DNA of 64,000 bases from a candidate division TA06 bacterium B3_TA06 (GTDB lineage: Bacteria; Hydrothermota; Tepidihabitantia; B3-TA06). Position 1 is the first letter of the stretch, and each line of letters begins with the position of its first letter. The stretch lies in NCBI GenBank assembly GCA_005223075.1, contig NJBO01000006.1, forward strand, positions 1-64,000. Direction: 5' to 3'. Below, one piece after another: positions 18,035-26,795 of this stretch. The notes beneath the pieces were generated by a model. The model did not search any database and was not told the origin of the DNA. It saw nothing but the letters and a program-made list of their open reading frames with translations. Position numbers and translations under genes: made by a program.

Positions 18035-19254
18035 TATTTCTCCCTTAGCCAGTGCCCCAGAAGCGCTTGTTCCTCACGCTTGTTACGAACCCTCGCGTCG
18101 AGCTTCGAGGCAAGGAGGTTGTCCAGTAACTCCTTGTACCTTGGTCCAGGTTGGATACCCATACGCTTTAGATCCTCGCCGGTTGTTGAGATCTTTACAT
18201 TACTGTAGTCCTCCAGATAGCGGGTGATCTTCTCACAGCTTTTAGCTCTTGTGGTTTCTGCGATAATCCCCAGCCCCCTTTGATCGTAGTTATTGAGGTA
18301 GAAGGTGATCTGGGATGGGGTCCTGAGTCGTGCAAGGGAGGAAAGGATCTTTCTGGCCTCCCGCAGGGTGCTTGTGGTTTCAAGGCATGCCTTCTTTACC
18401 GGGAGTTTCTTTACATGGGTCTCGTCAAATAAAGAAAGGAGCAGACACAGGAACTCGCAGCTTTCCTTGATGCGTCCCAGCCGCGTAGGGGAGAGGGAAG
18501 CAAGGGGTTTTCCAAGGAAGGCAAGCGCGTCCAATGACTTCAATCTCTTGATTGTCCTTACCCTCACCTCTTTCGGTTCCTGCGCGATGCATCGTAACTC
18601 ATAAAGATGTCTCTCCCTTGATAGGGCAGGTGTTCTCTTCACCGCTTTCTTGAGCAACACTAACGTATGCGGCTCAATCCTGAATCCAAACCTTGCTGCA
18701 TATCGCACCGCGCGGAAGATTCGGGTAGGATCGTCGGTAAAACTCTTATCGTGCAGAACACGGATCAACCTTTTCTTAAGGTCTCTTTGACCCTTAAGAG
18801 GATCAAGCAGGTTCCCGAAGTCTGAAGGATGCAGGGACTGGGCCATGGCGTTCACGGTAAAGTCCCGCCGGTGTAGGTCATCCGTGATCGAAGCAGGCTC
18901 GACCTTCGGGAGTTCGCCTGGTTTTGGGTAACTCTCGCGGCGTGTTCTTGCGATATCTATCCTTTCCCCTTTCGGTCCTTGAAGTGTTCCTGTCTTGAAC
19001 GGCGGGTAGTAGAGAAAGCGAGTCCCTAGTTCTTTTGCCAATCGCTCGCCCAGGCGCTGAACATTGCCTTCGCAGGCCAGATCGATATCCAGGGTCTTCT
19101 TGCCCAACAGCCTATCGCGTACCACCCCTCCTACCAGGTAAAGCTTAGCCCCTTCCTGGGCCGCTATCTCTCCCAGCCAGCGCAGGCCGGTGTTAGTGCT
19201 GCGGCGGAGTAAAGCCCATCTCTTTTGCGGGGCCGGGCTTTTCTTTGATTTCAA
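18034..19254 (-). CDS. cca: CCA tRNA nucleotidyltransferase / poly(A) polymerase family
   Basis: About 406 residues. LYLVGGVVRDRLLGKKTLDIDL gives the class II nucleotidyltransferase core with the catalytic DxD, and DDLHRRDFTVNAMAQSL plus FTDDPTRIFRAVRYAARFGF are the family motifs; the C-terminus is helical. It adds or repairs the CCA end of tRNAs. The TTG at 19254 has a GGAAAG just upstream but makes the gene overlap DUF3467 by 62 nt; no better start was found before the first conserved motif, so the start is uncertain. Confidence 0.9.
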   Translation of the reverse strand: MKSKKSPAPQKRWALLRRSTNTGLRWLGEIAAQEGAKLYLVGGVVRDRLLGKKTLDIDLACEGNVQRLGERLAKELGTRFLYYPPFKTGTLQGPKGERIDIARTRRESYPKPGELPKVEPASITDDLHRRDFTVNAMAQSLHPSDFGNLLDPLKGQRDLKKRLIRVLHDKSFTDDPTRIFRAVRYAARFGFRIEPHTLVLLKKAVKRTPALSRERHLYELRCIAQEPKEVRVRTIKRLKSLDALAFLGKPLASLSPTRLGRIKESCEFLCLLLSLFDETHVKKLPVKKACLETTSTLREARKILSSLARLRTPSQITFYLNNYDQRGLGIIAETTRAKSCEKITRYLEDYSNVKISTTGEDLKRMGIQPGPRYKELLDNLLASKLDARVRNKREEQALLGHWLREK

Positions 19255-19507
19255 TCTTTCCGTAGCGTGCCTCGTATTTCTTGATGTTTTCCTCTAACGT
19301 GCGGCGCAGAAGCTCGATATGCTGAGGGGACATGACGATACGCGAAAGCACCCTTGCCTTGGGCAGTCCTGGCAGCATGCGCGCGAAATCCAGTATGAAC
19401 TCCGATGAAGAGTGAGCAACCAGCACAAGGTTCGAGTAGGTGCCCTCGGCCTGCTCGGGCTTTATCTCAACGTCCAGTCTGCGAACAGGTTTCGGTTGTT
19501 CGTTCAT
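19193..19507 (-). CDS. DUF3467 domain protein
   Basis: 104 residues. The stretch EGTYSNLVLVAHSSSEFILD, followed by FARMLPGLPKARVLSRIVMSPQHIELL, is the conserved core of DUF3467, a small widespread protein of unknown function often encoded near housekeeping genes. GGAGG lies 6 nt before the ATG and a promoter at 19529-19556 precedes it. It is the first gene of a DUF3467-cca-M50-ftsK transcript. Confidence 0.88.
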   Translation of the reverse strand: MNEQPKPVRRLDVEIKPEQAEGTYSNLVLVAHSSSEFILDFARMLPGLPKARVLSRIVMSPQHIELLRRTLEENIKKYEARYGKIEIKEKPGPAKEMGFTPPQH

Positions 19508-19592: not shown

Positions 19593-19735
19593 ATTCTTCA
19601 GGTTTCTATTGCACTCGTCATAAAAAAGCTGGTCAAATGCTGGTCAAAAGATGGTCAAAAGGTGGTCAAATGATGGACAAAAACGCGACTTCGTCGCGAT
19701 TTTAAACTGCAAAAGTCAAAATGCAAAATGGTATG
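19593..19735 (+). repeat. Composite repeat copy 2: conserved head, five 11-bp units, palindrome, AT tail
   Basis: Head at 19593-19622 (TTCAGGTTTCTATTGCACTC followed by GTCATA), then five 11-bp steps at 19622-19676 ending in CTGG/ATGG/GTGG, then CGCGACTTCGTCGCG and TTTTAAACTGCAAAAGTCAA. Copy 1 (2338-2420, inverted) has the same order and the same number of 11-bp units. The rest of the gap 19736-19817 holds only a partial GTCATTGCGAG-type repeat end. Confidence 0.75.
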
Positions 19736-19817
19736 GGGTAAAAGCTCGCCGCCCTCACTTCGCTCCCGATGACAGGATGCGGGCTATTTCTTGATAATCC
19801 ATAGCGAACCCCGAAGT

Positions 19818-20810
19818 CTATTTCGTTACTTTTATTCTACGTGTTAGGAAGTATGTTATAATGAGAGAGGCGACGCCAAAGCCGCCAACAACACATGCTA
19901 TTATTATTTTCCCAACGTTTTGGCTTTGGAGTAATGAAATTATGGTATACATGAGAGAGCCAGCGCCTATGAGAGCGCCTATAACCGCGCCGAATCTTTT
20001 GTCAAACAACTGAGAGGCCTCTTTTAAAACATTTTCTATCTTTTCCGAAAGCCTTTCCCTGACGTCTACGATTTTGGAAGATAATTCGGTTATTTGTTTC
20101 TGGAATTCTTGTTTTAAAAAAATCACATCTTTTGAAACTTGGTCAAATTTGCCACCGAGTTCTACAAGTTCTGTACCGATATGATTAAAAGGATATCCTG
20201 CTTCTTTCAATATTGTCGTTGGAGGGATGTTAGTGTAGCTTGAAGCTATGATCTTGCTTTTAGGAATACTGGTAGGGATACGACGTGCAGAAGGCCTGAT
20301 TCCTTCCGTATCCTGGTAGTGGTCAATTTCTTTCTCACCATATAAGACTTCCGATAATTCTTCCTCTGTTTCAAGTAAGAAAATAGTCAATTTAAAGATA
20401 GGCTCCCCGTATTCTAGTGTAATCTTATTAATTGAATTATTTCGAATTCCCCAATTTAGATTACCTCTGAAGCCAGCGTCAACTTTTGTTGTTAATAGGG
20501 ATAGTCCTTCTCTCATCATAGTTGTTGTTGGTGTGAGGAGTCCCATTAACAACATTTTGGGATATTGCTTTTGAACTGTTTCTTTTGTAAAATCGATTTT
20601 TTCAAGACTAGAGATGAGGACAGTTTCGCTGAGGTGTATTACAAGGAAGTATCCTGGTTTTAACTCTTTCTCTTCGCCCGTTGAAAGGAATTGCACATGA
20701 TTACCTAGGTGAAGTCTAATCCCATGTGTGTGTATGGCATTATCGTCTCCTCCAAGGATTACTGTGCCACATAATTTTTTTATTTCACGGTCAGCAAGAA
20801 TCTTTGCCAT
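19818..20810 (-). CDS. dCTP-deaminase/dUTPase-fold domain fused to coiled coil and two membrane helices
   Basis: 330 residues; AAGGAGGG lies 5 nt before the ATG. Residues 1-185 follow the Dcd layout: ILADREIKKL, GIRLHLGNHVQF, LKPGYFLVIHLSETVLI, TTTMMREGLSL, VDAGFRGNLNWGIRNNS, YGEKEIDHYQ. Against the Dcd consensus the RSS of the phosphate-binding RSSLGRLGL motif reads TTT, and the catalytic Glu (LEL/LEF) reads Gly, so deaminase activity is unlikely. A helical, probably coiled-coil stretch (about 215-270) leads to two C-terminal membrane helices (about 275-297 and 302-322). The gene is visibly AT-richer than its neighbours, suggesting transfer. A nucleotide-sensing membrane role is inference. 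Confidence 0.7.
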   Translation of the reverse strand: MAKILADREIKKLCGTVILGGDDNAIHTHGIRLHLGNHVQFLSTGEEKELKPGYFLVIHLSETVLISSLEKIDFTKETVQKQYPKMLLMGLLTPTTTMMREGLSLLTTKVDAGFRGNLNWGIRNNSINKITLEYGEPIFKLTIFLLETEEELSEVLYGEKEIDHYQDTEGIRPSARRIPTSIPKSKIIASSYTNIPPTTILKEAGYPFNHIGTELVELGGKFDQVSKDVIFLKQEFQKQITELSSKIVDVRERLSEKIENVLKEASQLFDKRFGAVIGALIGAGSLMYTIISLLQSQNVGKIIIACVVGGFGVASLIITYFLTRRIKVTK

Positions 20811-20854
20811 TCGACCCTCCTTGTAAAGTAAACCTTAGTATTCTCATCTTTATA

Positions 20855-20882
20855 ATTTTAACCAAAAATGGAACGTTGTCAA
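20855..20882 (-). promoter_or_regulatory. Promoter of the dCTP-deaminase-like gene
   Basis: Minus strand: TTGACA (20882-20877), 16 bp, TAAAAT (20860-20855), followed by a ~45 nt leader ending in AAGGAGGG. Confidence 0.75.
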
Positions 20883-20889
20883 GTTTATA

Positions 20890-20932
20890 GGGGCCGACCT
20901 CAGCGCACCCCCTTCGGGTGTTAGGTCGGCCC
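20890..20932. repeat. Palindromic intergenic repeat, GGGCCGACCT type
   Basis: GGGCCGACCT pairs with AGGTCGGCCC around a CCCCCTTCGGG hairpin; same design as 1590-1638. It separates the promoter of the deaminase-like gene from the end of the lipoate-ligase-like gene. Confidence 0.7.
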
Positions 20933-20940
20933 GGCTGAAA

Positions 20941-21339
20941 CTATTCCTCGATCTTCAACGCCAGCAGCATATCCTCGACCGAGACGCCGGGAAGCTCTAG
21001 GCCCTGCTCAGAAATCACTCGGCCGATCCGAGTACCAACCTCACCTCGTGTTCTGTAAGCACCTTTCAGACCATCCTCGATCCTTGGCAGCCCCTGAAGC
21101 GGAAGAAGGGTAAAATCGCCGGAGATGATCACATCCGCCAATCTGTTTTCGTGAACCTCTGACGCCGTCCTTATCAGTCCGCCCGGTGCCTTGTGCATCC
21201 CCATGACGAACTCCACACCCGATCTGATGCGGACCTGGCCGGGTTTCTTCATGGTGCGCTTGAAGAGAAAGCTCGAATCGGTCATCCTGGCGATGGTCTC
21301 GGCATTCTCCCCTAGATTAAGTGAGTGGTGACTTGACAA
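20941..21339 (-). CDS. Stand-alone lipoate-protein ligase C-terminal (LplB-like) domain
   Basis: Up to 132 residues from a TTG; an internal ATG at 21285 would give 114. KAPGGLIRTASEVHENRLADVIISGDFTLLP and the helical IEDGLKG...VSVEDMLLAL tail fit the accessory domain at the C-terminus of lipoate ligase LplA, which exists separately as LplB in some archaea. The ~240-residue catalytic domain is not found beside it. It could be half of a split ligase whose partner lies elsewhere, or a decayed LplA. No strong Shine-Dalgarno is visible for either start. Confidence 0.6.
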   Translation of the reverse strand: MSSHHSLNLGENAETIARMTDSSFLFKRTMKKPGQVRIRSGVEFVMGMHKAPGGLIRTASEVHENRLADVIISGDFTLLPLQGLPRIEDGLKGAYRTRGEVGTRIGRVISEQGLELPGVSVEDMLLALKIEE

Positions 21340-25958: not shown

Positions 25959-26312
25959 TTACTTGAGCAGCTTGGCAGCCTCCTCGGCAAGACGCTTGAT
26001 AAACTCCACCTGAAGCTTCGGCTTTCCCTTCAATAATTGGAGCAGCTTTTCAGAAAGAATCCTGGGGTCATGGGAACTTTCACTGGAAGGACTGAACCCC
26101 AGCAAATCGTTTGGTGAGACCTTAAGTGCAACTGCAATCCGAAACAGCGTAGTGGCGCTTGGATTGGAGAGAAAGCGTTCGAGCTTGCTCACATACCTGG
26201 GATTTAAATCGGCTTCCTCGGCTAACTTCTCCTGGGACCATCCCAGTGCTCTCCGTCTGCTACGTATCTCTACCCCAATTCTCTTAACTAATGCAACGTC
26301 ATCTGCTTTCAT
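25959..26312 (-). CDS. XRE-family helix-turn-helix regulator, paralog 1
   Basis: 117 residues. RIGVEIRSRRRALGWSQEKL, AEEADLNPRYVSKLE and FLSNPSATTLFRIAVALKVS form the five-helix XRE DNA-binding domain (about 8-70). The C-terminal ~45 residues are charged and helical, probably for dimerisation. It is over 70% identical by eye to the next upstream gene, with most changes in the recognition helix region (RYVSKLE against KYLSEIE) and C-terminal tail, so the two may bind different sites. The Shine-Dalgarno is weak. A palindrome containing GCGAACCT lies between the two genes. Confidence 0.85.
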   Translation of the reverse strand: MKADDVALVKRIGVEIRSRRRALGWSQEKLAEEADLNPRYVSKLERFLSNPSATTLFRIAVALKVSPNDLLGFSPSSESSHDPRILSEKLLQLLKGKPKLQVEFIKRLAEEAAKLLK

Positions 26313-26333
26313 GTTTAAAGAACAGCATGTAGT

Positions 26334-26372
26334 GCGAACCTCAGCGTGCCCCCTGTGGGGTATGAGGTTCGC
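26334..26372. repeat. Palindrome between the two XRE genes
   Basis: GCGAACCT (26334-26341) pairs with AGGTTCGC (26365-26372) around CAGCGTGCCCCCTGTGGGGT. It resembles 1590-1638 and 20890-20932 with a changed but still complementary stem. It could be an intergenic repeat or an operator. Confidence 0.5.
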
Positions 26373-26387
26373 CAGTGTTTAGATACA

Positions 26388-26741
26388 CTACTTGAGCAGC
26401 CTGGCAGTCTCATCTAAAAGACGCTTGAGAAGCTCCATTTGGAGCTTTGGCTTGCCTTTCAACGAGTCAAGCAGTTTCTCAAAAAGAACCCTGGGGTCAT
26501 GGGAAGTTTCGCCGGAAGGACTGAAGTCCAGCAAATCGTTCGGCGATGTCTTAAGTGCAACCGCAATCCGGTTCAGTATAGTAGCGCTGGGATTGGAGAG
26601 AAAGCGTTCGATCTCGCTCAGATACTTAGGGTTTAGATCGGCTTCCTCGGCTAACTTTTCCTGCGACCACCCCAGCGCTTTCCGTCTGCTGCGTATCTCT
26701 ACTCCTATCCTCTTAACTAATGCAACGTCATCTTTTTTCAT
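26388..26741 (-). CDS. XRE-family helix-turn-helix regulator, paralog 2
   Basis: 117 residues from ATG 26741, chosen because homology to paralog 1 begins exactly there (MKKDDVALVKRIGVEIRSRR); an in-frame ATG at 26771 would add ten residues. Same layout: XRE domain about 8-70 then a charged helical tail ending TARLLK. It lies 75 bp upstream of paralog 1, a clear tandem duplication. It diverges from the GIY-YIG-like gene at 26887, which it may control. Confidence 0.85.
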   Translation of the reverse strand: MKKDDVALVKRIGVEIRSRRKALGWSQEKLAEEADLNPKYLSEIERFLSNPSATILNRIAVALKTSPNDLLDFSPSGETSHDPRVLFEKLLDSLKGKPKLQMELLKRLLDETARLLK

Positions 26742-26795
26742 ATCCGAAGAATAAACAAGACAGCCCAACATTCCACCTGCTAAATACCGAAAGAC

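Follow-up and report, generated by a model that had tools for sequence, protein, structure and literature searches.

A putative membrane-anchored pseudoenzyme of the dUTPase/dCTP deaminase superfamily encoded by an apparently mobile bacterial gene

In the window (the whole stretch of 64,000 nucleotides analysed here, from a candidate division TA06 bacterium), we have characterized a 330-aa open reading frame with an ATG start codon, the product of which joins a predicted dCTP deaminase (Dcd)/dUTPase domain to a coiled coil and two putative membrane helices (Table 1). We tentatively favour the view that this protein is a stand-alone pseudoenzyme, encoded by a mobile gene and anchored in the membrane, which descends from the archaeal-type branch of dUTPases within the dUTPase/dCTP-deaminase superfamily and has had its pocket repurposed. 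The wider meaning would be that the dUTPase/Dcd fold has been turned, in several lineages, into membrane-fixed proteins that are without the catalytic motifs and are carried on mobile DNA.

Table 1. Features of the gene and of the DNA beside it (positions in the window; residues are those of the 330-aa protein).
Feature	Position	Strand	Basis
Whole gene (330 aa), predicted to encode a Dcd/dUTPase-fold domain, then a coiled coil and a pair of membrane helices	19818..20810	-	ORF list, profiles, structure model
Dcd/dUTPase-fold domain (predicted), residues 1-150	20361..20810	-	AF2 pLDDT about 80-93; Foldseek
Substituted phosphate-binding motif TPTTTMMREG, residues 93-102 (relatives: RSSLAREG)	20505..20534	-	Alignment, five members
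Motif-3 hairpin, residues 108-126, with Asp111 kept and Gly121 at the place of the deaminase Glu	20433..20489	-	Alignment
Conserved domain-to-coil element LKEAGYPFNHIGTELVELGGKF..VSKDV..LK, residues 201-233	20112..20210	-	20/33 residues invariant
Coiled coil (predicted), residues about 209-272	19995..20186	-	AF2 helix 209-296; heptad core
Membrane helix 1 (predicted), residues 276-294	19929..19985	-	Hydropathy; matching place in orthologs
Membrane helix 2 (predicted), residues 302-320	19851..19907	-	Hydropathy; matching place in orthologs
Promoter-like TTGACA-16-TAAAAT	20855..20882	-	Consensus match only
11-bp tandem array (A)TGGTCAAA, 3' of the gene	19624..19682	.	First base is the end of homology to related genomes
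Copy of the dispersed GGGCCGACC..GGTCGGCCC repeat, 5' of the gene	20888..20934	.	5' boundary of the variable segment

The original prediction of a Dcd layout is borne out by profiles and by structure models. TIGR02274 matched the 330-aa protein above chance (E=3.8e-7, 30 bits), short of its equivalog cut-off of 92.8 bits, and PF22769 scored 23.7 bits (E=5.7e-5) against a cut-off of 27 bits, which is exceeded by the orthologs from Gemmatimonadota (L006, 30.1 bits), Bryobacterales (L007, 34.7 bits) and the Stahlbacteria genome G001 (34.7 bits). PHROG 1663 (dCTP deaminase) also matched (E=1.2e-10); the trimeric dUTPase profile, PF00692, gave no match to the protein in the Pfam search. A first AlphaFold2 model, built from an alignment of four orthologs only with no Dcd enzyme included, was of low confidence (pLDDT 48), and its 50 best PDB matches were all dUTPases or dCTP deaminases (best E 4.2e-7). 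The second run, a monomer prediction with 11 diverse sequences in the alignment, gave a mean pLDDT of 74.9, with about 80-93 over residues 1-150. The best Foldseek match of this model was Dcd-Dut from Mycobacterium tuberculosis (2qlp; E 4.6e-10), and its rmsd to the dUTPase of Thermococcus pacificus (8y1w) was 1.8 A over 145 columns. According to these models, residues about 1-150 have the Dcd/dUTPase fold, and not an unrelated one.

In the remainder of the deeper model, one long helix covers residues 209-296 and a second covers residues 301-328. All four intact members show full heptad occupancy over 28 residues from residue about 208, and hydropathy places two hydrophobic C-terminal helices at corresponding positions in the same 4/4 copies, so the coiled coil and paired membrane helices that had been proposed are upheld as predictions. 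Positive residues precede helix 1 and follow helix 2, which, by the positive-inside rule, suggests a membrane hairpin with the Dcd-fold domain in the cytoplasm. When the protein was compared with PADLOC models there was no defence match, only LeoBC over the coil (E=0.038), and Pfam families of two-helix effectors such as SLATT were not matched, the only hits being weak ones to MtrG and DUF2207_C.

In a multiple alignment, R110-S111-S112 of E. coli Dcd are replaced by Thr-Thr-Thr in the window protein and the catalytic Glu138 by Gly; R115 and D128 are retained as Arg100 and Asp111. Both substitutions had been predicted, and both are common to 5/5 family members (the window copy, Stahlbacteria G001, Gemmatimonadota L006, Bryobacterales L007 and a second Acidobacteriota copy, L026/L027), no ortholog having the Glu. 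They had also been taken to signify a catalytically dead domain; of the two, only the change of RSS to TTT is informative on this. The deaminase Glu is absent also from archaeal dUTPases (Ala in 2yzj, Met in 8y1w), and as this residue serves deamination, its loss says nothing about dUTPase activity; we have therefore rejected it as proof of inactivity. Loss of the Glu would abolish deamination only. The same archaeal dUTPases retain K/R-S-S/T at the phosphate-binding motif, and the loss of RSS is the stronger sign of inactivity. By this sign dUTPase activity of the window protein seems unlikely, though Asp111, the motif-3 residue corresponding to the catalytic Asp of dUTPases, is invariant in 5/5 members and residual activity is possible.

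The TPTTTMMREG motif is wholly invariant in the five members and the motif-3 hairpin mostly so; in the coil and membrane residues 234-330, only 4/97 positions are invariant. Per site, pN is 0.24-0.35 vs a pS of 0.79-0.90, with synonymous sites saturated, and by this measure the gene is under purifying selection. Together, the invariance of the motif and the low non-synonymous change suggest that the altered pocket is maintained by selection, and we read it as repurposed, not decayed. Uracil recognition in trimeric dUTPases is through the main chain of the motif-3 hairpin (PMC12524310). Since that hairpin is kept in the family, a ligand bound without the usual triphosphate contacts is conceivable.

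The family is rare and scattered across phyla. Counting the known carriers themselves, it was found in 2/147 genomes of its own phylum, 1/298 in the phylum of G100 and 2/396 in the phylum of G101, the five members belonging to Stahlbacteria (two), Gemmatimonadota (one) and Acidobacteriota (two). Identity among the four intact copies is about 50% across three phyla, which makes horizontal transfer likely. The gene is indeed AT-richer, as had been claimed (38% GC vs 52% for the window), and at all four intact loci its GC content is lower than that of the surroundings (38/52, 44/53, 53/66 and 51/58%). On both sides of the gene, the DNA is 96-97% identical to that of the same-genus sister genome G001 (SOJW01000056, Ca. 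Stahlbacteria), which has a peptidase-M15-like gene and two paralogous genes at this place instead; homology to three genomes ends at one base, 19623, where the 11-bp array begins. The copy of G001 itself, 54% identical, lies at another variable site, and the window genome has other genes there. As the contents differ at both Stahlbacteria sites, both placements are strain-specific and probably recent, and the gene appears to be mobile. Scans of viral contigs found no member of the query family, and tblastn of plasmids and phages with the window protein as query gave no match. One Acidobacteriota copy (end of L026 and start of L027, genome G471) is broken near residue 166, its parts lying on two contigs that both read Gln-Asn-Thr at the break; an insertion that duplicated its target, or a break in the assembly, may be the cause.

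The variable site (19624-20940) lies between a 104-aa gene (19193-19507) and a ligase-like gene, and in relatives it is occupied by a peptidase-M15-like gene together with one, two or three paralogous genes of 290 aa. Beside it, at 20941-21339 on the minus strand, is a partial duplication: a fragment of 132 aa that corresponds to the C-terminal portion of a gene of 350 aa, which we take to be lipoate-protein-ligase-like. The fragment shares 93% identity with the full copy (G000:C6:66852-67217; G000 is the window genome), and a Pfam search with it gave no match. A repeat element was said to adjoin the gene, and there is one on either side: the 11-bp array 3' and the dispersed GGGCCGACC repeat 5'. 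We rejected the array as a feature of the gene, as it occurs also at 2344-2375. The dispersed TAGGGGCCGACC repeat is found at 7 places in the window, including 20888, 25804 and 27480 (7 vs 0.25 expected). As for the promoter attributed to the gene, TTGACA-16-TAAAAT lies 45 nt upstream of the ATG with an 11/12 consensus match, which makes it a candidate. Two tandem small HTH regulator genes, very similar to each other (117 and 127 aa), lie at 25959-26771 on the minus strand. In a same-genus genome (L011, G003:C52), a 388-aa protein carries two tandem PF22769 matches.

A receptor-effector in defence had also been proposed. Between the loci of the query family no neighbour gene recurs, and none of these loci has a convincing defence gene adjoining it; around the Bryobacterales copy (L007) there are one marginal HEPN and one weak AbiEi-like protein. 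All that favours the proposal is the mobile, variable nature of the gene and the contexts of its distant cousins, groups B and C. These came to light when the Gemmatimonadota ortholog was used as query, and they are linked to the query family by profile comparison only, the match lying in the Dcd domain (group B, E 1.4e-9; group C, E 4.6e-11).

Group B is found on plasmids of Rhizobium, Sinorhizobium, Acuticoccus, Bradyrhizobium, Acinetobacter, Qipengyuania and Sulfitobacter, and also in two Acidobacteriota. Its Dcd domain has K/R-A/T/S-x in place of RSS and Ser/Ala at the Glu position, and its C-terminus has a coil and one membrane helix, clear by hydropathy in 8/9. Among its neighbours are an ImmA/IrrE peptidase with HTH, a C1 peptidase, uracil-DNA glycosylase (UDG), MazG_C and thymidylate synthase, with a 5hmdU DNA kinase-like protein (HMUDK) in one case. 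Group C (Sinorhizobium, Rhizobium, Priestia and prophage contigs) has K-G-x in place of RSS, Val at the Glu position and two C-terminal helices, and its conserved operon includes an Oxidored_FMN protein, frequently accompanied by MazG; in one case it follows immediately on Gabija genes. A search of 396 genomes of G101's phylum, run without a positive control, found no group C member at E 1e-20. Many group B and C proteins are annotated as deoxycytidine triphosphate deaminase, and the cousins are carried on plasmids, prophages and islands. Such contexts speak for a role of the wider set in nucleotide conflicts, but give no direct support to such a role in the query family.

In the plasmid islands L031 (5001-10666), L034, L037, L028, L033 and L032, an XRE regulator, ImmA/IrrE, a papain-like C1 peptidase, UDG, MazG_C and a Dcd-like membrane protein are found together, and the ImmA/IrrE of some of them bears a chagasin-like I42 inhibitor domain. 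This XRE-ImmA/IrrE-C1 peptidase-UDG-MazG_C arrangement looks like an undescribed multigene conflict system. A conserved operon of a Dcd-like two-helix protein, in some cases MazG, and Oxidored_FMN is seen at L038, L039, L040 and L042-L044, in Alphaproteobacteria, Priestia and prophages.

In the explanation that we tentatively favour, the window protein would form a trimer, held by both its domain and its coil, and the domain would face the cytoplasm. The Thr-Thr-Thr pocket would no longer process triphosphates and would instead bind a different ligand; a pyrimidine nucleoside or nucleotide, or one derived from an invader, is plausible. By way of the 201-233 element and then the coil, the state of this ligand might reach the membrane hairpin, whose part would be to anchor the protein or to perturb the membrane; the function would most likely be an accessory role against invaders or stress. 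Retention of Asp111 and of the hairpin leaves room for residual dUTPase activity. The evidence for the family comes from five sequences, which are few, and the membrane parts of the cousins differ (one or two helices).

Several other explanations have to be weighed against this. A serious rival, though a less likely one, is that the protein is a regulator or scaffold in which the trimeric Dcd platform binds a protein partner at the membrane and no small ligand, in the way that staphylococcal phage dUTPases bind the Stl repressor. Regulation by protein binding is known for dUTPases (PMC5593958), and the loss of the triphosphate-binding residues and the conservation of the 201-233 element, outside the Dcd domain, would both fit. 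However, the former substrate-pocket motif is the most invariant stretch of the protein, beyond the needs of a pure scaffold, and there is no recurring partner gene. That the protein is a working, membrane-tethered dUTPase, in which Thr replaces Ser/Arg and the Asp still hydrolyses dUTP, either lowering dUTP or helping a lineage with no other dUTPase, we consider unlikely. The nearest solved relatives are dUTPases that are also without the Glu, Asp111 is retained, PF00692 is absent from the window genome (G000) and its relatives G001-G007, and neither the window genome nor sister G001 has another PF22769 member; on the other hand, TTT removes the phosphate-binding Arg/Lys and Ser that relatives retain, several family-level relatives survive with neither dUTPase nor Dcd, the Gemmatimonadota and Acidobacteriota carriers possess their own dUTPase, and a membrane anchor would be unneeded. 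The idea of a housekeeping dUTPase of the cell is likewise weakened by relatives without any dUTPase and by other carriers with their own.

More doubtful still is a part in a membrane-held nucleotide-modification complex: the group B and C cousins lie near thymidylate synthase, MazG, UDG and 5hmdU-kinase-like genes, but they are distant, and the query family stands alone at every locus. Lost catalytic motifs and a rare family might also describe a relic, that is, a transferred Dcd fragment drifting without function, yet this is already contradicted, since across phyla the frames are open, the motifs invariant and the selection purifying, and we find it scarcely credible. Beyond the repurposed pseudoenzyme that we favour, a bolder proposal, which we regard as fairly unlikely, is that the query family and groups B and C are branches of an undescribed class of one-protein membrane receptor, whose re-made pocket would respond to the state of pyrimidine nucleotides or nucleosides, such as pools that a phage has modified or raised. 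As effectors against invaders, these receptors would target the inner membrane directly. Should the pocket be a sensor, a nucleotide-state receptor has been masked by the annotation 'dCTP deaminase', and this would be a new kind of system only if the receptor reading were proven. Direct targets for mutation are offered by the TTT motif and by the AGYPF..HI.TEL element, both invariant.

The combination described here is, as far as the searched literature and profile libraries show, undescribed, and a literature search found no paper on membrane-tethered Dcd proteins without catalysis; it is a variant within a known fold family. The archaeal dUTPases of Sulfolobus tokodaii (2yzj/2zdc) and Thermococcus pacificus (8y1w), which are annotated as dCTP deaminase, resemble the query in fold, in the 'DxG..G' hairpin and in having no deaminase Glu, and 2yzj is the closest sequence match among solved structures (E 1.6e-8). 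However, K/R-S-S/T is retained in these soluble proteins, which are about 155-170 aa long, whereas the query has TTT, a putative coiled coil and two predicted membrane helices. Dcd itself (TIGR02274, PF22769) shares the domain layout and fold, but the query is without Glu138 and RSS and scores 30 vs 92.8 bits. dUTPases can act as dUTP-switched regulators, and those of staphylococcal phages, which bind the Stl repressor, use a domain of the superfamily in signalling, as proposed for the query, although they are active soluble enzymes with no membrane part (PMC5593958). Clover is a phage defence that monitors dTTP (PMC12265719), and with the dUTP-switched regulators it offers a precedent for the steps proposed for the query. 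Similarly to the query, the group B plasmid proteins (WP_309199644.1, WP_104840050.1 and others) have a Dcd domain without the Glu and with an altered RSS, a coil and a C-terminal membrane helix; they differ in their single helix, their K/R-A/T/S-x pocket and their multigene context (ImmA/IrrE, C1 peptidase, UDG and MazG). Finally, group C, from Sinorhizobium, Rhizobium, Priestia and prophages, shares with the query a Dcd domain without Glu or RSS and two C-terminal helices, but is set apart by its K-G-x pocket and by its operon with an Oxidored_FMN protein and often MazG.
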